Shown here piece by piece: positions 12,649-21,989 of a DNA stretch of 33,038 nt. Source of the stretch: Megasphaera sp. NM10 (GTDB lineage: Bacteria; Bacillota; Negativicutes; Veillonellales; Megasphaeraceae); assembly GCF_000417505.1 (NCBI RefSeq), contig NZ_APHY01000038.1:4-33041 (forward strand), given 5' to 3'. Numbering within the stretch: the first letter of the stretch is position 1; each line of letters begins with the position of its first letter. The notes under the pieces were generated by a model. That model searched no databases. It saw nothing but the letters and a program-made list of their open reading frames with translations, and was not told the DNA's origin. The translations under genes were made by a program, and so were the position numbers.

Positions 12649-14133
12649 ATGGCAGCGAAAAAGTCTAGTTTTGACAAAGTACTCAATGCCTGGGACGTCC
12701 TGGTCATCGCCTTCGGGGCAATGATTGGCTGGGCCTGGGTCGTATCGACAGGGGATTGGATCACCGGCGGCGGTGTCCTCGGCGCCATGCTGGGGTTCGC
12801 CATCGGCGGCGTCATGATTTTCTTTGTCGGTCTTACTTATGCCGAATTGACATCGGCTATGCCGCAGTGCGGCGGCGAACACATCTTCAGTTATAAGGCC
12901 ATGGGGCCCATCGGTTCCTTCATATGCACGTGGATGATCGTCCTCGGCTATGTCAGCGTCGTCTGTTTTGAAGCTTGCGCTTTGCCGACGATCCTCGTCT
13001 ACTTGTTCCCGGATTTCCTCATGGGTTACTTGTACACCATCGGCGGCTTCGACATCTATGCGACCTGGCTGGCTGCGGCCGTCATCATCGCTGTCGCCAT
13101 TACGGCCATCAACATCATCGGTGCCAAGACGGCTGCCCGCCTGCAGACCATCCTGACGGCCATCATCGGCGGCGTCGGCATCGTCTTTGTGGCTGCTTCG
13201 GTCCTGACCGGTTCGACGGCCAACCTGGACGGCCAGCTCTTCATGGGCGCTACGACGTCGGAAATGGCCAAGGGTACCCTGGCTATCGCCGTCATGACGC
13301 CGTTCTATTTCATCGGCTTCGACGTCATCCCGCAGGCAGCCGAAGAAATTTCCGTATCCTTGCAGAAAATCGGCCGTATCCTGATTTTGTCCATCGTCCT
13401 GGCCGTATTGTTCTATGCTCTCATCATCTTCGGTGTCGGCTATATCCTCAACCAGAGTGAAATAGCCCTGGCTATGAAAGGCGTCGGCAGCCTGGTCACG
13501 GCCGATGCCATGGCTGTCGCCTTTGGCAGTTCCATGATGGCCAAAGTCCTCATCATCGGCGGTATCTGCGGCGTCGTCACCAGCTGGAACTCCTTCCTCA
13601 TCGGTGGCAGCCGTGCCATGTATTCCATGGCTGAATCGTACATGATTCCTCATACTTTTGCTAAATTGCACGACAAATATAAGACACCGGTCAACGCGCT
13701 CCTGCTCATCGGCGTCTTGTCCATTGCCGCCCTGTTCTTCGGCCGCAAGATGCTGGTCTGGGTCGTCGATGCCGGCAACTTCGGCTGCTGCATGGCTTAC
13801 TGCATGGTTTCCATTTCTTTCCTGATCCTGCGCAAGAAGGCGCCGGACATGGTCCGTCCCTATAAGGTACGCCACTATAAATTCGTCGGTGCCATGGCTG
13901 TCCTCATGTCGGCCTTCATGGTCGTCATGTACATCGTCCCCGGTTCCGGTGCCGCCCTGGCTCCGCAGGAATGGGGCATGGTAGCCGGCTGGTCCCTGCT
14001 GGGCGTCATCTTCGGCGTATACTGCAAGGCCAAATACGGCGAACGCTTCGCTACCCATATCGACGTCGCCATGGATACGGAAGTCAGGGAAGCGACCCTG
14101 CCGTCGAGTGAACTGAAGACGGTCAAATTGTAA
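12649..14133 (+). CDS. APC-family amino-acid permease
   Basis: 494 residues with about twelve hydrophobic segments, typical of amino acid-polyamine-organocation carriers of the inner membrane. The first membrane helix carries the glycine-rich AFGAMIGWAWVVSTGDW, the unwound substrate-binding stretch of the family; PFYFIGFDVIPQAAEEI is the helix-6 equivalent. The start is ATG 12649, set by AAGGGGGAG; the frame is open further upstream, but that part is leader hairpin. It is a close paralogue of the N-terminal half of the fused protein at 16294-18876, including a 62-bp stretch with no base difference (13342-13403 = 16987-17048). It ends in a short polar tail after FATHIDVA. The substrate is not predictable; the neighbouring class III aminotransferase suggests an amino acid with a distal amino group, an inference only. 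Confidence 0.88.
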   Translation: MAAKKSSFDKVLNAWDVLVIAFGAMIGWAWVVSTGDWITGGGVLGAMLGFAIGGVMIFFVGLTYAELTSAMPQCGGEHIFSYKAMGPIGSFICTWMIVLGYVSVVCFEACALPTILVYLFPDFLMGYLYTIGGFDIYATWLAAAVIIAVAITAINIIGAKTAARLQTILTAIIGGVGIVFVAASVLTGSTANLDGQLFMGATTSEMAKGTLAIAVMTPFYFIGFDVIPQAAEEISVSLQKIGRILILSIVLAVLFYALIIFGVGYILNQSEIALAMKGVGSLVTADAMAVAFGSSMMAKVLIIGGICGVVTSWNSFLIGGSRAMYSMAESYMIPHTFAKLHDKYKTPVNALLLIGVLSIAALFFGRKMLVWVVDAGNFGCCMAYCMVSISFLILRKKAPDMVRPYKVRHYKFVGAMAVLMSAFMVVMYIVPGSGAALAPQEWGMVAGWSLLGVIFGVYCKAKYGERFATHIDVAMDTEVREATLPSSELKTVKL

Positions 14134-14210: not shown

Positions 14211-14239
14211 TTGACAAAGAAAGTGTAAAGTATTACACT
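14211..14239 (+). promoter_or_regulatory. Promoter with overlapping palindrome (aminotransferase)
   Basis: TTGACA (14211-14216), 17 bases, TACACT (14234-14239). GTGTAAAGTATTACAC (14223-14238) is an inverted repeat covering the spacer end and the -10, related in sequence (TAAAGTATTA) to the palindrome at 12527-12543. Confidence 0.7.
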
Positions 14240-14267
14240 ATATTCAACAAAGAAAATAACGGAGACA

Positions 14268-14320
14268 AGAGGCAAGGGAGCCTGATGGAACATCAGCTTT
14301 CCTTGCCTCTGTTTTTGTTT
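14268..14320 (+). terminator. Leader terminator (attenuator) before the aminotransferase
   Basis: AGAGGCAAGG (14268-14277) pairs perfectly with CCTTGCCTCT (14301-14310). An inner stem CTGATG-GAA-CATCAG (14282-14296) stacks on it, and a T-rich tract follows. It lies about 25 bases after the predicted transcription start and 60 before the gene. Confidence 0.8.
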
Positions 14321-14380: not shown

Positions 14381-15601
14381 ATGAGATTACGCGATGTAGG
14401 ATTGACCAAAGAAGAAATCAAAGCCAAAGTAGACAAGTACATGATCGAAACGTACGAACGCTTCGACATGATCGCTGAACGCGGCAAGGGCATGTACGTC
14501 TACGATGAAAACGGCACGCCGTACCTCGATTTCTACGCTGGTATCGCCGTCAACAGTGCCGGCAGCTGTAACGATAAAGTCGTCCTGGCCGTCATCGACC
14601 AGTGCATGGACATCATGCAGACCTTCAACTATCCGTACACGGTCCCGCAGGCCCTGCTGGCTGAAAAAATCTGCACGACCATCGGCATGGACAAGATTTT
14701 CTTCCAGAACTCCGGTGCAGAAGCCAACGAAGCCATGATCAAGATGGCCCGTAAATACGGCGTCGAACACTTTGGTCCCAACAAATACGAAATCATTACG
14801 GCAAAAGAATCCTTCCACGGCCGTACCTTTGGTTCCATGAGTGCTACGGGCCAGCCGGACAATGCCTGCCAGATCGGTTTCGGCGCCATGACACCGGGCT
14901 TCAAATATGCTGAATTCAACAATTTGAAAGCCTTTGAAGACGCCATCACGGAAAACACCATCGGCATCATGGTCGAACCGGTACAGGGCGAAGGCGGTGT
15001 CCATCCGGCAACGAAAGAATTCCTCACAGGCCTGCGCAAACTGTGCGATGAAAAAGGCCTGCTCCTCCTCCTGGACGAAGTACAGAGCGGCTGGTGCCGC
15101 ACCGGTGCTGTCATGTCCTACATGAACTACGGCATCAAACCGGATATCGTTTCCATGGCAAAAGCCCTTGGCGGCGGCATGCCGATCGCAGCCATCTGCG
15201 CCCGCGAAGACGTTTCCAAAGCCTTCACCATGGGTTCCCACGGCAGCACCTTCGGCGGCCATCCGGTCTGCTGCGCCGCTGCGTTGGCCGAAGTCAACGA
15301 ACTGTTGGACAAAGACCTGGCCGGCAATGCCAAGAAGATGGGGGCATACTTCCTGGAACAGGCCCGCGAAAAACTGCCGCATCTGAAGGAAGCCCGCGGC
15401 CAGGGCTGCTTCCTGGGGCTTGAATTCGACGACAAGATCAACAGCGTCGACTTGAAGCATAAATGCTTCGACAAACACATGCTGTCGACAGCTATCGGCG
15501 AACACGTCCTGCGCCTGGTACCGCCGCTGATCCTCCAGAAGGAACACGTCGACAAGGCCATTGCCATCATCAAGGAATCGGTCGAAGAATTGGCAAAATA
15601 A
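14381..15601 (+). CDS. Class III aminotransferase (acetylornithine/ornithine type)
   Basis: 406 residues, PLP-dependent. It transfers an amino group, usually the distal one, from substrates such as ornithine, acetylornithine, lysine or 4-aminobutyrate to a keto acid. Visible: NSGAEANEAMIKMARKYG (phosphate binding), SFHGRTFGSMSATGQ, MVEPVQGEGGV, LLLLDEVQSGWCRTG (Asp to the PLP ring) and SMAKALGGGMP with PLP lysine K261, then GSHGSTFGGHPVCCAAA. The start ATG 14381 follows GGGGGAG. It is not in an arginine operon; it sits between an amino-acid permease and a kinase-like gene, which fits amino-acid catabolism better than arginine synthesis. The exact substrate is uncertain. Confidence 0.88.
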   Translation: MRLRDVGLTKEEIKAKVDKYMIETYERFDMIAERGKGMYVYDENGTPYLDFYAGIAVNSAGSCNDKVVLAVIDQCMDIMQTFNYPYTVPQALLAEKICTTIGMDKIFFQNSGAEANEAMIKMARKYGVEHFGPNKYEIITAKESFHGRTFGSMSATGQPDNACQIGFGAMTPGFKYAEFNNLKAFEDAITENTIGIMVEPVQGEGGVHPATKEFLTGLRKLCDEKGLLLLLDEVQSGWCRTGAVMSYMNYGIKPDIVSMAKALGGGMPIAAICAREDVSKAFTMGSHGSTFGGHPVCCAAALAEVNELLDKDLAGNAKKMGAYFLEQAREKLPHLKEARGQGCFLGLEFDDKINSVDLKHKCFDKHMLSTAIGEHVLRLVPPLILQKEHVDKAIAIIKESVEELAK

Positions 15602-15626
15602 GTACACGTAACTGAGGGGTATGAGA

Positions 15627-15668
15627 AGGTGTCTGCCAGAATTGAGGGGTTGGCAGGCACCTTTTCTT
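15627..15668 (+). terminator. Intrinsic terminator after the aminotransferase
   Basis: AGGTGTCTGCCA (15627-15638) pairs with TGGCAGGCACCT (15651-15662) with one G-U, followed by TTTTCTT. It ends only about 20 bases before the next start codon. No separate promoter is visible for that gene, so read-through may be how it is expressed. Confidence 0.85.
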
Positions 15669-15686
15669 AAAAAAGGGGGAAACGAA

Positions 15687-16280
15687 ATGAAACATTTCGT
15701 CATCACTGTGGGATGTGAATTCGGCAGCGGCGGACCGGAAATCGGCAAGATGCTGGCCAAGTCGCTGGGAATCGAATACTACGACCGGGATCTCGTAGAT
15801 AAAGTCGTGGAAAAAATCGGCGTAGAAAAACATCTCGTAGAAGAAGCAGATAATAAGAATTTCGTTCCGTACGGCATTGAAACGTCGTTGGGGACGCGCT
15901 ATGCGAATCTGTCGAATAAAGTCATTTACACGCAGTTCGATGTCATCCGCAAGATGGCCAAAACATCGTGCGTCATCATCGGCCGGTGCAGCGACTATAT
16001 CCTGAAGGGGCAGGATGATGTCGTCAACGTCTTCGTCTATGCACCGACGGAAGTACGCATCAAGACCATCATGGAAAAGATGAATTTATCCGAACGCCAT
16101 GCGGCAGAAGTCATCCGGGATTATGACAATGCCCTCCATCGCCGGTATAAATACATCACCGGCACTTATCGCGGCGACCGTCACAACCGCCACCTGCTGG
16201 TCGACAGCAGCGTCCTGGGTTGGGAAAAGACGGCGAAATTCATCAAATCCTTCGTCGAAATGTGTTTTGAAGAGACTTGA
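15687..16280 (+). CDS. Cytidylate-kinase-like P-loop protein (AAK/PF13189 type)
   Basis: 197 residues. It opens with ITVGCEFGSGGPEIGKMLAK, the modified Walker A of the cytidylate kinase-like family (EFGSGGxEIG), followed by the YYDRDLVDKV motif, CVIIGRCSDYIL, VFVYAPTEVRI and a C-terminal R-rich lid (YRGDRHNRHLLVDSS). Members are predicted nucleotide kinases, but their substrate is not established and the family is distinct from housekeeping Cmk. The start is ATG 15687 with GGGGGA upstream. It ends 13 bases before the fused permease and is almost certainly co-transcribed with it. Why a kinase-like protein accompanies a permease is not known. Confidence 0.82.
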   Translation: MKHFVITVGCEFGSGGPEIGKMLAKSLGIEYYDRDLVDKVVEKIGVEKHLVEEADNKNFVPYGIETSLGTRYANLSNKVIYTQFDVIRKMAKTSCVIIGRCSDYILKGQDDVVNVFVYAPTEVRIKTIMEKMNLSERHAAEVIRDYDNALHRRYKYITGTYRGDRHNRHLLVDSSVLGWEKTAKFIKSFVEMCFEET

Positions 16281-16293
16281 GGGGGTATGAAAG

Positions 16294-18876
16294 ATGGCTA
16301 CAAAAAAGTCTGATTTTGATAAAGTCCTGAGTGCCTGGGACGTCCTGGTCATCGCCTTCGGGGCCATGATCGGCTGGGGCTGGGTCGTATCGACAGGCGA
16401 CTGGATCATGGAAGGCGGCGTCCTCGGCGCTATGCTGGGCTTCGTCATTGGCGGCATCATGGTCTTCTTCGTAGGGCTGACCTATGCCGAACTGACGTCG
16501 GCCATGCCGCAGTGCGGTGGCGAACACGTCTTCAGTTATAAGGCCATGGGGCCCATTGGTTCTTTTATTTGTACGTGGATGATCGTCCTCGGCTATGTCA
16601 GCGTCGTCTGCTTTGAAGCCTGCGCCCTGCCGACGATCGTCGCTTATATTTATCCTGATTTCCTGACGGGTTATCTCTATACCGTTGCCGGCTTCGATAT
16701 TTACGCTTCCTGGCTGGCTGTGGCTATCCTGGTTTCTGTCTTCATTACAGCCATCAACATCGTCGGGACCAAGACGGCAGCTATTTTGCAGACCATCCTG
16801 ACGGTCATCATCGGCGGCGTCGGTATCCTGCTCATCGCCGCATCGGCCCTGACCGGGACGACGGCCAACCTGGAAGGTCAGCTCTTCATGGGGGCTACGA
16901 CGACGGATATGGTCAAAGGGACTTTGGCCGTGGCTGTCATGACGCCGTTCTATTTCATCGGCTTCGACGTCATTCCTCAGGCAGCGGAAGAAATTTCCGT
17001 ATCCTTGCAGAAAATCGGCCGTATCCTGATTTTGTCCATCGTCCTGGCTGTACTCTTCTATGCCCTCATCATCTTCGGTGTCGGCTATGTCATGAATAAT
17101 TCGGAAATCGCCGTTGCCATGAAAGGCGTCGGCGGCCTGGTCACGGCCGATGCCATGGCTGTCGCCTTTGGCAGCTCCATCATGGCCAAGGTCCTCATCA
17201 TCGGCGGTCTCTGCGGTATCATCACCAGTTGGAACTCCTTCCTCATCGGCGGAAGCCGCGCCATGTATTCCATGGCTGAATCGTACATGATTCCGCATGT
17301 CTTTGCGAAATTGCACGACAAATATAAGACGCCGATCAACGCGCTCCTGCTCATTGGCCTCTTGTCCATCATCGCGCCCTTCTTCGGCAAGAAGATGCTG
17401 GTCTGGGTCGTCGATGCCGGTAACTTCGGCTGCTGCGTCGCCTACTGCATGGTCGCCATTTCCTTCGTCATCCTGCGCAAAAAGGCTCCGGAAATGGCCC
17501 GTCCCTACAAGGTCAGCCATTATAAACTGGTCGGCGTCATGGCCATCCTCATGTCGGGCTTCATGGTCGTCATGTACATGATCCCCGGCTCCGGCGCTAC
17601 CCTGGTTCCCCAGGAATGGGGCATGGTCCTGGGCTGGTCCGTCCTGGGCGTCCTCTTCGGCTTCTACTGCAAGGCTAAATACGGCAGTAAATTCGCTACC
17701 CACATCGACGTCGCCGTCGATAATGAAGCCGTCGAAGAAGCGGGCGACCTGGCTTTCGGTCAGGCCATGGCCGCTGCCCTGCACGACGTCGAATCCGATG
17801 CGCCTGTCACCTATGTATCGCAGCCGCTGAGCTTCTCCTTCTCCATGCCTGTGTCCGTCGTCTTCGGTGCCGGTAAGCGCCATATGGCCGGGGAACTCTT
17901 TAAGGCCTATGGGACCAAGGCCCTGGTCGTCACCGATGCCGCTACCAATGGGCGGGACATCGTCAATGAAGTCGAAAAGAGCCTGAAAGAGGCTGGCATT
18001 TCCGTATCCCGCTTTGCTCATATTACGGGGAAATCCCTGGATATTACGGCTGATTCGGCAGTCGACGAAATCAAGAAGAACGGCAGCGACTTCATCGTCG
18101 CCATCGGCGGCAATACCGTCATGGAAGGGGCCAAGCTGATTGCCAGTGCCGCTGCCCGCACCTTGGGCAGGGCCATGATGCCCTTGAATTTCGTACCGAC
18201 GACGTATCACGCCGGCGCCTGCTTCGATGCATCCCTGCCCGATGGCAGCCGCGACAACGCCCTGCTGGCCAAGGTCGTCCTGGTTGATCCGGACTGCATG
18301 ACCGGCATGAGCCAGAAAGACCGGGCTGTCTCCGGCTTCGCCGCCCTGTGCGAATGTATCCGGGCCTATACGGCGCCCGATGCCCAGCCGCTGACTGATG
18401 CCATGGCCCTCTATGCCATCGACATCCTGAATGACAAGCTCGTCGGCGTCTGCGGGGAAAACACAGACAAAGGGGCTTGGGAAAAAGTCGTCCTGGCCGG
18501 CGTCATCGGCAGTATGGTCAGTGCCGAAACGGGCTGCCAGGTCGCCAAAGACCTGAAACAGGCCGTCGCCAAGACGTCTTTTGCAGCCGATGAAGTCCTC
18601 CTGGCCGCCATCGTGCCCGTCGTCGTCGACGCCAAGGCCGGTAAGGATCCCTTCCTCTATGGCAAACTGGCCCGCACCATGGGCGGTTTCACGTCCGATG
18701 ACTGCGCTGCCCGCCTCTGCTACCTGGCCAAGGCCCTGCACCTCGACCTGCGCATTGCCGACATGGGCGTCCATGAAGACGACATCGCCAACCTGGCCGA
18801 AGCCTACATGGGCGAAGAAGCGGCCGAAGCCGTCCGGGAAAAAGCCGCTGCTATGGAAGCCGCATTTGATTCGTGA
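16294..18876 (+). CDS. APC amino-acid permease fused to a degenerate glycerol-dehydrogenase-like domain
   Basis: 860 residues in one uninterrupted frame. Residues 1 to about 475 are an APC permease nearly matching the protein at 12649-14133 (AFGAMIGWGWVVSTGDW, FYFIGFDVIPQAAEEI). After FATHIDVA (about 467-474) comes a linker, then about 514-858 a GldA/iron-alcohol-dehydrogenase fold: MPVSVVFGAGKRHMAGEL, KALVVTDAA, then AIGGNTVMEGAKLIA (G605-G606-N607-T608, where active enzymes have GGGS/GGGK), FVPTTY, VLVDPD. The metal ligands are missing: the usual G-x-D-A-L-x-H becomes GFAALCE (A683, E687), the mid His block becomes ETGCQVAKDLK (746-755), and HGExV becomes AADEV. The cytoplasmic tail may therefore bind a nucleotide without catalysis and sense or gate transport; that is inference. 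It lies 13 bases after the kinase-like gene. Confidence 0.88.
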   Translation: MATKKSDFDKVLSAWDVLVIAFGAMIGWGWVVSTGDWIMEGGVLGAMLGFVIGGIMVFFVGLTYAELTSAMPQCGGEHVFSYKAMGPIGSFICTWMIVLGYVSVVCFEACALPTIVAYIYPDFLTGYLYTVAGFDIYASWLAVAILVSVFITAINIVGTKTAAILQTILTVIIGGVGILLIAASALTGTTANLEGQLFMGATTTDMVKGTLAVAVMTPFYFIGFDVIPQAAEEISVSLQKIGRILILSIVLAVLFYALIIFGVGYVMNNSEIAVAMKGVGGLVTADAMAVAFGSSIMAKVLIIGGLCGIITSWNSFLIGGSRAMYSMAESYMIPHVFAKLHDKYKTPINALLLIGLLSIIAPFFGKKMLVWVVDAGNFGCCVAYCMVAISFVILRKKAPEMARPYKVSHYKLVGVMAILMSGFMVVMYMIPGSGATLVPQEWGMVLGWSVLGVLFGFYCKAKYGSKFATHIDVAVDNEAVEEAGDLAFGQAMAAALHDVESDAPVTYVSQPLSFSFSMPVSVVFGAGKRHMAGELFKAYGTKALVVTDAATNGRDIVNEVEKSLKEAGISVSRFAHITGKSLDITADSAVDEIKKNGSDFIVAIGGNTVMEGAKLIASAAARTLGRAMMPLNFVPTTYHAGACFDASLPDGSRDNALLAKVVLVDPDCMTGMSQKDRAVSGFAALCECIRAYTAPDAQPLTDAMALYAIDILNDKLVGVCGENTDKGAWEKVVLAGVIGSMVSAETGCQVAKDLKQAVAKTSFAADEVLLAAIVPVVVDAKAGKDPFLYGKLARTMGGFTSDDCAARLCYLAKALHLDLRIADMGVHEDDIANLAEAYMGEEAAEAVREKAAAMEAAFDS

Positions 18877-18889
18877 AAATAGTTTGATA

Positions 18890-18972
18890 TTTGACGAAAG
18901 GCTCTCCTCATAGGAGAGCTGGCCGCCAAAGGCGGTCTGAGAGGTTGATTTCTCAGCATTTGTAGTTTTTAG
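18890..18972. repeat. AACCTCTCAG-type intergenic repeat, copy B (inverted)
   Basis: This is the exact reverse complement of 7629-7711 over 83 bases. It starts 13 bases after the stop codon of the fused permease. The 18877-19198 gap contains, in order, this repeat, a GTAGGGG unit, a terminator and a tandem-repeat promoter region. Confidence 0.9.
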
Positions 18973-19016
18973 CCCGCCGGATATATGTAAGATACTTGTG
19001 AAACCGATTTCGTGAA

Positions 19017-19042
19017 CGGGCGCCCCACGTGGCGCCCCTACA
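19017..19042. repeat. GTAGGGG-type palindromic repeat (minus orientation)
   Basis: Bases 19017-19042 equal the reverse complement of 9218-9243. It joins directly onto the terminator at 19044-19080, as the related unit does at 183-237. Confidence 0.75.
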
Positions 19043-19043
19043 G

Positions 19044-19080
19044 AAAAAGGCGCTGTCTTCATGGGACAGCGCCTTTTTTT
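19044..19080. terminator. Intrinsic terminator
   Basis: GGCGCTGTC (19049-19057) pairs with GACAGCGCC (19065-19073), flanked by A5 and T7. It ends the fused-permease transcript. Confidence 0.88.
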
Positions 19081-19198: not shown

Positions 19199-19600
19199 AT
19201 GACACTCAGTTTATTTTGGTCGCGTTATACGCTGGAACTTCGGGAACAGCATCTGCGCGATGTCGATGAACTTTATCATTATCTCATTGCCCGGGAACGA
19301 TGGAACTGGTTCCTGGCCAAGATTCCGGAACAGGCCCAGATCCAGATACTCCGCGGCCACAACCATGGCGAAGATTCCTGGACGTGCCGCAAGTGGCTCG
19401 ACCACATGCTGGACTGGATCAAGGAGAACAAGCCGCCTGCCGTCTATGATGCCGTCATCGACAAGATTCATATGATTGAAGACAAGCCGATTGAAGAACT
19501 AGAAAAACAGGCTGCCCGCAACATTTCGCCGGAAGAGTTGGAAAAACTCCAGCGTGCCGGTTATTTTCAATGTATCGAGGCGCCGAACAAAAGTGAATGA
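19199..19600 (+). CDS. Conserved-looking small protein of unknown function, first gene of the nfeD-floA operon
   Basis: 133 residues, soluble, no signal peptide or membrane segment. It is rich in Trp and charged residues (ERWNWFLAKIPEQAQ, CRKWLDHMLDWIKENKPP) and ends with a helical EELEKLQRAGYFQC tail. I do not recognise a domain. The start ATG 19199 is set by TTGGAGG; an upstream in-frame TTG at 19184 overlaps that ribosome site and is not used. The stop TGA overlaps an ATG in the next frame, and the next likely start is 15 bases downstream, so it is co-transcribed with the NfeD gene and may act on the same membrane machinery. Confidence 0.75.
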   Translation: MTLSLFWSRYTLELREQHLRDVDELYHYLIARERWNWFLAKIPEQAQIQILRGHNHGEDSWTCRKWLDHMLDWIKENKPPAVYDAVIDKIHMIEDKPIEELEKQAARNISPEELEKLQRAGYFQCIEAPNKSE

Positions 19601-19614
19601 AAGCAGGTGAGGGA

Positions 19615-20925
19615 ATGACCTTTCTATTACGCATGATAACAGCTGCTGTCTTATTCTTTTCCCTGGCAGCTGCCGCACCGGCTGCTGTCGTGCAGGCCGA
19701 TTCCGTCCGCGTCCTGCCTATTTCCGGTGACATCGACGGCAGCCAGGCCGCCTTTATCCAGCGCGGCCTGCGCCAGGCCGCCGAAGAAGGCGATACGGCC
19801 GTCGTCATTACCATCAATACCCTGGGCGGCCGCGTCGACAGCGCCTTGAAGATCCGCGACATGCTCATGGCATCCGACGTGCCGACTATTGCCTATGTCA
19901 CGTCGCGGGCCTGGTCGGCCGGGGCCCTCATCGCCCTGTCGTGCCGCCATATCATCATGGCGTCGGGCAGCAGCATCGGCGCTGCCGAACCGATTCCCAA
20001 TACGGAGAAGAACATTGCCGCCCTGAAAGCCGAGTTCAGCGCGACGGCGGCCCAGAATGGCCATAATCCCGGCGTCGCCGAAGCCATGGTCGACAAGTCC
20101 CAGGGCTATCCCGACTATGCCGAACCGGGGAAGATACTGGCCTTATCCGACGGCCAGGCCAGGGAACTCAACGTGTCCGACGGCTCGGCCGATACGTTGT
20201 CCGAAGCCCTGGCCCTGTACAGCTTGGGCGATGCCCGCCTGACCTATGTCGACAAGGACTGGCGTGATGACGCCGTCGGCATCTTGCAGAATCCCTATGT
20301 CCGCACGGTCTTCGTCGCCCTGATCATCGCCGCCTTGCTGGCAGAAATCAAGATGGCCGGCATCGGCGCCGGTATTGCTACGGCCTTCGTCTTCGGCGGC
20401 CTGCTGCTCCTGTCGGGCAACGAGTCCCTGGCCGACGGCCTGAAAATCGTCGCCGCCTTCCTGGTTAGTCTGCTCTGCATCGGCCTGGAACTGGCGTCGC
20501 CTGGCGTCGGCATCTTTGGCCTGGCCGGCGTCGTCCTCTTGTTCGGCAGCCTGTTCTTCATGCTGGGAGCCACGTATGAGGCCGTCTACATCCTGGCCGG
20601 CGGGACGGTCCTGGCCATCATATTGTTCTATATCGTCGGCAAGCATTTGCCCAAGAGCCGGCTTTTTGAAAAATTGACCCTCAAGAACCGTTCGACGAAA
20701 GAAAAGGGATATACGGCCCAGGCCGATTACAGCAAATATCTCTATGAACGGGGCAAGACCATTACCATTCTGCGTCCGTCCGGGACGATCCGCATCGGCA
20801 AAGAGCGCGTCGATGCCACGGCCAACGGCACGTTCATCGGCCGCGACGTCATCGTCCGCGTGGTCAAAGTCGAAGGCAGCCGCGTCGTCGTCGAACCGGA
20901 ACCGGAACGCCATCCCAAACACTGA
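19615..20925 (+). CDS. nfeD: NfeD-family membrane serine protease (ClpP-like + NfeD domain)
   Basis: 436 residues from ATG 19615 (AGGTGAGGG upstream; the in-frame ATG at 19597 overlaps the previous stop and lacks a site). Order: signal peptide (1-29), ClpP-like protease domain with the oxyanion loop [10 protein letters not shown] (69-77) and nucleophile S101 in RAWSAGAL with general base K161 (AMVDKSQG), then four to five membrane helices (about 225-345), and a C-terminal OB-fold NfeD domain ([19 protein letters not shown]). This long form is a membrane-bound protease facing outside the cytoplasm, and archaeal homologues cleave stomatin. It is followed directly by floA, its standard partner in many bacteria. 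Confidence 0.92.
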
Positions 20926-20939
20926 GAAGGAGGTATCTT

Positions 20940-21989
20940 ATGTCTATCGTATCCTTTTTGGCAGTGCCTGTCATCATCATCGTGGCCGCTGTCATCATCG
21001 TATCCCTGTTCCTGCACTTCGTGCCCATCGGTTTGTGGATTTCGGCCATGGCCGCCGGCGTATCCGTCGGCATCGTCAACCTCATCGGCATGCGCCTGCG
21101 CCGGGTCATCCCGTCGAAGATCATCCTGCCCCTGGTCAAGGCCAACAAGGCCGGCCTCGATGTCAACGTCAACCAGCTGGAAGCCCATTACCTGGCCGGC
21201 GGCGACGTCGACCGCGTCGTCGATGCCCTCATTGCCGCCCATCGGGCGACGATGTCCCTGACCTTTGAACGAGCCTGCGCCATCGACCTGGCTGGCCGCG
21301 ACGTCCTGGAAGCCGTCCAGATGAGCGTCAATCCCAAGGTCATCGAAACGCCGTTCATCTCGGCTGTCGCCCAGAACGGCATCGAACTGAAAGTCCGGGC
21401 CCGGGTCACGGTCCGCGCCAACATCGACCGCCTCGTCGGCGGTGCCGGTGAAGCGACGGTCATCGCCCGCGTCGGCGAAGGCATCGTCACCAGTGTCGGC
21501 TCGGCACGGGACCATTCGCTGGTCCTGGAAAACCCTGATGAAATCAGTAAGACCGTCCTCAGCAAGGGCCTCGACGCCGGGACGGCCTTTGAAATCTTGT
21601 CCATCGATATTGCCGACGTCGACATAGGCCGCAATATCGGCGCCCGCCTGCAGACGGACCAGGCCGAAGCGGACAAGCAGATCGCCCAGGCCAAGGCCGA
21701 AGAACGGCGGGCCATGGCTGTGGCCAAAGAGCAGGAAATGCAGGCCTATACCCAGGAAATGCAGGCCAAAGTCGTCGAAGCCCAGGCCGAAGTCCCGTTG
21801 GCTCTGGCCCAGGCCCTGCGCGAAGGCAAGTTAGGCGTCATGGACTATTATAATATGAAGAATATCATGGCCGACACGGACATGCGCGCCGCTGTCGCCC
21901 AGGCCGGCGTCCCCAAGACCCAGTCGGTCCCGACGGGGCAGGACAGTCACCACGACGACCGCGGTCCGGCAGGCCATAGTGAAAAGTAG
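20940..21989 (+). CDS. floA: Flotillin-like protein FloA
   Basis: 349 residues. It is a scaffold of membrane microdomains. An N-terminal membrane hairpin (about residues 5-50) is followed by the FloA-specific [23 protein letters not shown], the SPFH-like region ([50 protein letters not shown]) and an Ala/Glu/Gln-rich coiled coil ([20 protein letters not shown] onward). The tail is polar with a short His/Asp run. AGAAGGAGG precedes the ATG. It starts 14 bases after nfeD, the common FloA-NfeD pairing. Confidence 0.95.

Follow-up and report, generated by a model that had tools for sequence, protein, structure and literature searches.

What would a bacterial amino-acid permease gain from a whole dehydrogenase fold at its C-terminus, when the residues that make such a fold an enzyme are gone? 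This question is raised by a gene of Megasphaera sp. NM10 (contig NZ_APHY01000038.1) lying within the window, by which we mean the whole 33,038-nucleotide stretch of DNA that was analysed. The reading that we prefer, with moderate confidence and on the strength of sequence comparison and structure models, is that this gene encodes a GABA-type APC permease with a catalytically dead, cytosolic C-terminal Fe-ADH domain that would serve in regulation or docking.

The fused gene and its setting

The fusion gene runs through positions 16294..18876 (+) as one stop-free frame of 860 residues, with gaggggg ahead of the ATG and a codon score close to that of the neighbouring genes (the training set included this frame). 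Pfam places AA_permease_2 at residues 12-444 (profile positions 1-420 of 427, 138.8 bits) and Fe-ADH and ADH_Fe_C at residues 519-642 and 678-842 (78.0 and 56.1 bits), all above their cutoffs. The permease part (residues 12-461; 16327..17676, +) is delimited by Pfam, hydropathy and charge count; with 12 hydrophobic segments, the last ending by residue 461, and nearly the whole profile covered, it is a complete APC permease. A linker follows (residues 462-513; 17677..17832, +), in which D485, F488, G489, A491 and A495 are invariant in the five fusions described below, and then the Fe-ADH-fold domain (residues 514-860; 17833..18873, +), recognized by Pfam, AlphaFold2 and structure comparison. 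A preliminary description of this DNA had reported a single 860-residue frame joining a complete permease to a complete dehydrogenase fold, and both the frame and Pfam agree. Because Lys and Arg number 17 in the loops on the N-terminal side (domain excluded) and 4 in those on the opposite side, the predicted topology should place the Fe-ADH-fold domain in the cytosol, where the preliminary description had also put it. A full-length AlphaFold2 model built on four sequences reached a pLDDT of 35.9. Opposite the fusion lies a 939-residue antisense open frame (16243-19062, minus), taken as a codon-bias shadow.

Among the matches listed, the fusion occurs in five of 15 Megasphaera genomes: the window's own (G000), G006, G007, G008 and G011. 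Its carriers include M. cerevisiae DSM 20462 and two Megasphaera MAGs. Since five genomes share the fusion, and G006, whose copy is 92% identical to the window's, is assembled as a single contig, the fusion is not an assembly join; that artefact, which the preliminary description had named as the observation that would undo its claim, can be rejected and the fusion is genuine. Across the class, 15 of 380 genomes have a permease match at 1e-80, five of them as frames of 861-881 residues and the remainder as unfused frames of 493-519 residues. In the phylum, 13 of 398 genomes match the permease at 1e-70, with a long frame solely in G000. Within the genus, again among the matches listed, an unfused permease orthologue of about 70% identity is present in G003, G004 and G014, and seven genomes, some of them incomplete, have no permease match at 1e-80. 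In three genomes of the genus the permease stands without the domain, aminotransferase or kinase-like gene nearby.

We read the gene contexts of relatives by tblastn. Every fusion genome has the same gene order: a class-III aminotransferase, a cytidylate-kinase-like gene and then the fusion, which ends the operon. The window's aminotransferase (14381..15601, +; PF00202) is ArgD-like, scoring 418.4 bits on TIGR00707 against a cutoff of 410.05. The cytidylate-kinase-like gene (15621..16280, +; PF13189) adjoins the fusion in every case; its start may lie later than annotated here, because relatives align from residue 23. Ahead of the aminotransferase, all five genomes have a leader (14211..14319, +) with a TTGACA promoter-like box, a strong hairpin and then a T run. 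The hairpin has a fold z of -5.4, with none of 200 shuffles as stable, and the leader looks like a transcription attenuator; Rfam gave no matches in the window. Downstream of the operon (19597-21989) are an NfeD1b-type gene and a FloA flotillin gene, which are likewise found in G006, G011, G007 and G008.

An arginine-pathway role as ArgD was considered for the window's aminotransferase and tentatively set aside: a second copy (L130) has an AA_kinase gene next to it, the kind of neighbour that an arg cluster would have. A search for ArgJ passed its cutoff in none of the five genomes.

The window also holds a paralogous permease without the domain (12649..14133, +), which matches the fused one at 84% identity across 481 residues. 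Within their first 460 codons the two permeases differ by a dS of 0.474 with a dN/dS of 0.19. In G006 the interval from trpS to the aminotransferase contains no counterpart, so the paralogue appears to be either a fairly young copy or one that G006 has lost. The preliminary description had offered it as a natural comparison for the fused gene. For that it is usable but imperfect: the closest genome, G006, lacks it, and it evolves faster.

The metal site and cofactor loops of the domain

By homology and fold the domain belongs to the Fe-ADH family, as its Pfam matches, its structural neighbours and its place among Fe-ADHs in a tree agree. An AlphaFold2 model of residues 511-860, built on 12 sequences, gave a pLDDT of 83.1 and a pTM of 0.84; its alignment held intact Fe-ADHs from viral contigs, which leans the model toward the Fe-ADH fold. 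The model superposes on 1,3-propanediol oxidoreductase (3bfj) with Z 40.0 over 343 of 350 residues at an rmsd of 3.2, whereas E. coli GldA (5zxl) reaches Z 29.0 and the GldA entries overall Z 29-30. Among NCBIfam models of the family, the best match of the fusion is ErcA at 88.8 bits (cutoff 550, not reached), as against 32.2 bits for glycerol dehydrogenase PRK09423 (cutoff 336, also not reached). Judged by these profile scores and the model, the fused domain is an Fe-ADH proper and not GldA-like, and the GldA-type label of the preliminary description has to be replaced. Relatives of such enzymes are also encoded on IMG/VR viral-collection contigs (L157-L175), several of them full length and alike; three of four scans of viral contigs yielded no relatives.

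To compare motifs, we aligned the five fusions with eight free-standing relatives, in which 47 columns are invariant. The four metal ligands of the family correspond to Asp242, His246, His330 and His357 of ADHFE1 in an excerpt of PMC5125639. All four positions (683, 687, 752 and 766) are replaced in every fusion and kept in every relative. A683 (18340..18342, +) stands for the ligand Asp, with Ala or Thr across the fusions; E687 (18352..18354, +) and K752 (18547..18549, +) stand for ligand His, with Glu, Lys or Gln at the first and Lys, Glu or Ala at the second. At the last position, where the alignment is loose, D766 (18589..18591, +) takes the place of His and no fusion has His. The residues that the preliminary description had listed are as it gave them (GGNT at 605-608, A683, E687, AADEV around 766), and neither 752 (Lys) nor 756 (Gln) is His; the ligand loss that it reported in one protein is common to all five.

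The cofactor loops are affected as well. The excerpt of PMC5125639 describes GGGS as conserved in all subfamilies and in contact with the pyrophosphate. Its place is taken by GGNT at residues 605-608 (18106..18117, +) in the window, and across the five fusions the position reads GGNT, GGNT, GGSE, GGND and GGND; what had been described as a kept landmark is instead a broken GGGS motif. Residues 639-643 (18208..18222, +) replace the relatives' GTGSE loop. In total, 17 of the 47 columns are lost in all five fusions, including the four ligands, the last two residues of GGGS (its third Gly and its Ser) and three positions out of the five in GTGSE. Thirteen columns are kept in all five, mostly structural ones: F514, G525, G540, F574, D599, G605, G606, A613, K614, A617, T636, D665 and P699. 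None of the fusions keeps any of the four ligands or GGGS, a pattern at odds with a working metalloenzyme. Of the His residues in the domain, just 576 and 816 are invariant across the fusions, so we see no shifted three-His site; by this count the other finding that would have overturned the preliminary description, metal ligands at shifted positions, is not apparent.

The domain holds 14 invariant residues that are specific to the fusions. In the nucleotide half, five of these (D548, A575, H576, V609 and F633) sit at strand ends or immediately next to them. In the alignment D548 falls on the VTD of Bacillus methanol dehydrogenases, a position at which the eight relatives have Gly or Ser, and an excerpt of PMC5125639 lists these dehydrogenases among the enzymes with Asp at the position that sets NAD preference. 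We infer that D548, invariant in all five fusions, occupies this position, and because of it nucleotide binding is still conceivable, if no more. Sensing of NAD(H) by the fused domain, suggested in the preliminary description, is possible but unproven, because GGGS and GTGSE are broken too.

Could the domain still be a reductase that works without metal, as the maleylacetate reductases of the Fe-ADH family do? The excerpt of PMC5125639 describes those enzymes as active in metal-free form, and they match the model well (3hl0, Z 36.5; 3w5s, Z 35.7). D548 and G605-G606 are kept, and the apparently active Fe-ADH of the unfused operons discussed below offers a plausible job. The same excerpt, however, ties metal loss in maleylacetate reductases to replacement of the Asp alone. 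Set against this published description, the fusions do not follow the pattern: all five lack GGGS and three of the GTGSE residues as well as the four ligands. We consider a surviving reductase very improbable.

Constraint on the domain and its ancestry

If the domain does no chemistry, is it maintained at all? We estimated dN/dS by the Nei-Gojobori method; the least saturated pairs are G000-G006 and G007-G008, and the others are near or beyond saturation. For G000-G006, dN/dS is 0.113 in the domain (dS 0.56) and 0.071 in the permease; for G007-G008, it is 0.188 (dS 1.4) and 0.036. The other, near-saturated pairs that gave values range from 0.22 to 0.39 in the domain, the more saturated pairs G006-G007 and G006-G008 lying at 0.36-0.39, and reach 0.50 in its N-terminal half. 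The low values in the two least saturated pairs indicate that the domain is constrained, which rejects an absence of constraint, and those of the N-terminal half indicate that constraint is weaker on the cleft half. By these estimates the domain is under purifying selection, clearly looser than that on the permease.

The most serious of the rivals to a regulatory or docking domain is a passive leftover: a former Fe-ADH fused to the permease when a gene boundary was lost, without a task, and held in frame since a misfolded tail would harm the permease. Three observations speak for it. The domain evolves far faster than the permease, with 37-40% identity between the window's fusion and the three distant fusions where the permease retains 84-85%; its catalytic and cofactor motifs are all lost; and the same genome has a paralogue that does without the domain. 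The dN/dS values of 0.113 and 0.188 argue against it, as does the survival of the frame and the fold-defining residues in all five genomes over saturated synonymous divergence. On balance we think this explanation unlikely.

Unfused forms of the operon are found in family f14, which we take to be the Selenomonadaceae. In all seven f14 genomes with the permease, the aminotransferase and the kinase-like gene stand ahead of an unfused permease, the aminotransferase of G341 being truncated at the end of its contig. A separate Fe-ADH follows the permease in six of the seven (cut in G342), and in G340 the contig ends first. The five complete permease-adjacent Fe-ADHs of this family keep the Asp and His motifs, GGGS and GTGSE. 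A further pair of permease and Fe-ADH genes is present on contig 9 of the fusion genome G007 (L098, 8268-12737), in a second operon that also has an aminotransferase and a P-II-like gene; the Fe-ADH gene begins before the permease gene has ended.

These operons bear on the idea that the domain is a pure scaffold, which would only oligomerise the permease or tether the aminotransferase or kinase-like protein at the membrane. A scaffold is consistent with a kept fold core and an abandoned active cleft, with an unchanging pair of operon partners across the five fusion genomes, and with the assembly of Fe-ADHs as dimers or pentamers of dimers described in an excerpt of PMC5125639. The unfused operons, however, have the same partners, and a scaffold leaves the new invariant residues at the strand ends of the nucleotide half unexplained. 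We regard a role of this kind alone as quite unlikely.

Is the fused domain, then, the f14 enzyme joined to its neighbour? In a first Fe-ADH tree (46 sequences, 4 of 50 left out), the fused domains group together (100/100), and their neighbours are free-standing enzymes of G370, G016 and family f4, presumably the Veillonellaceae; the f14 permease-adjacent Fe-ADHs are placed elsewhere. A second tree of 32 rows left out 14 of the 46 (nine near-copies and five rows on long branches, including the permease-adjacent Fe-ADH from contig 9 of G007). On this set, uniting the fused and f14 groups costs 54.8 log units (AU test, p-AU 4.9e-6). The tree and the AU test both reject orthology with the separate f14 enzyme; the fused stem is long (1.4 to 1.46), however, which qualifies this result and leaves the exact sister of the fused domains unsure. 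Because a different Fe-ADH lineage follows the f14 permease, permease and Fe-ADH appear to have been partnered at least twice. The ancestor of the fused domain was probably a working Fe-ADH, as its free-standing relatives still appear to be.

Possible function and relation to known systems

What the permease carries is suggested by its neighbours. Among more distant permease relatives in the phylum, we read contexts in eight of 11 matching genomes (G000 and G088 not counted); an aminotransferase adjoins the permease in six of the eight. All five neighbouring aminotransferases that were scanned pass the GABA transaminase model TIGR00700, and both SSADH candidates pass TIGR01780. A GABA-type (omega-amino acid) substrate is likely on the basis of these gene neighbours. 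As a counterpoint, the window's own aminotransferase is ArgD-like and the permease falls below the cutoff for GabP (TIGR01773, 42.7 bits against 678.1); among the 25 top NCBIfam matches listed for the fusion, none passes its cutoff.

That the metal site is lost and yet selection preserves the domain suggests that an enzyme fold has been reused as a control or docking part. In the regulatory or docking reading that we prefer, the fused domain would do no chemistry and would most likely bind a pathway metabolite or a nucleotide in a remodelled cleft, and uptake would thereby be matched to the aminotransferase pathway. One point against this dead regulator is that cleft residues differ among the fusions (GGNT, GGSE, GGND). 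A more specific version, to which we give a low probability, makes the dead dehydrogenase a cytosolic ligand-sensing gate, its metal and hydride centre taken apart and its Rossmann-like cleft rebuilt around D548 and H576, with a nucleotide, or an aldehyde or amino acid of the pathway, controlling uptake.

Points of comparison come with the case itself, in the form of the unfused operon whose Fe-ADH is intact, the paralogue that lacks the domain, and the divergence among the five fusions. With these one could test how a working enzyme becomes a control part, and why on at least two occasions this permease was joined by an Fe-ADH as partner.

Cytosolic control domains attached to transporters are already known, but none of the titles and abstract beginnings listed in searches of the open-licence literature describes a secondary transporter fused to a fermentation enzyme that has lost its catalysis. 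Potassium systems with RCK or KTN domains are transporters with cytosolic nucleotide-fold control domains; they are like the fusion in having a nucleotide-fold domain on a transport protein, but the fold family and the transporters are different, and the likeness is one of resemblance only. In G070, an 848-residue frame on contig 8 (L024, 396-2939) likewise puts an APC permease and a cytosolic signalling domain into one protein, but there the fused part is a HATPase_c domain of the histidine-kinase type; next to it, among the matches listed, is a second similar permease in an 826-residue frame.

The Fe-ADH family itself offers a precedent for a part in signalling: in Pseudomonas, YiaY/ErcA is an Fe-ADH tied to a membrane-associated sensor, a hybrid histidine kinase, with a regulatory role; according to an excerpt of PMC12997753, losing the Fe-ADH or its partner kinase lowers expression of the ped cluster. 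There, however, the Fe-ADH is encoded apart from its partner, which is a kinase and not a transporter, and the fusion scores far below the ErcA cutoff of 550. APC permeases (the TIGR00909 subfamily, BcaP and GABA permeases) share with the fusion a complete 12-segment permease; the fusion differs in its extra 350-residue dehydrogenase-fold domain and reaches no subfamily cutoff. For that domain, the closest likeness in whole fold is to DhaT (3bfj), FucO (1rrm) and the Bacillus methanol dehydrogenases (8zwd, 8zrl), with Z 38-40 over 342-344 of 350 residues; unlike these enzymes, it is without the metal ligands, GGGS and GTGSE, and it is joined to a transporter.
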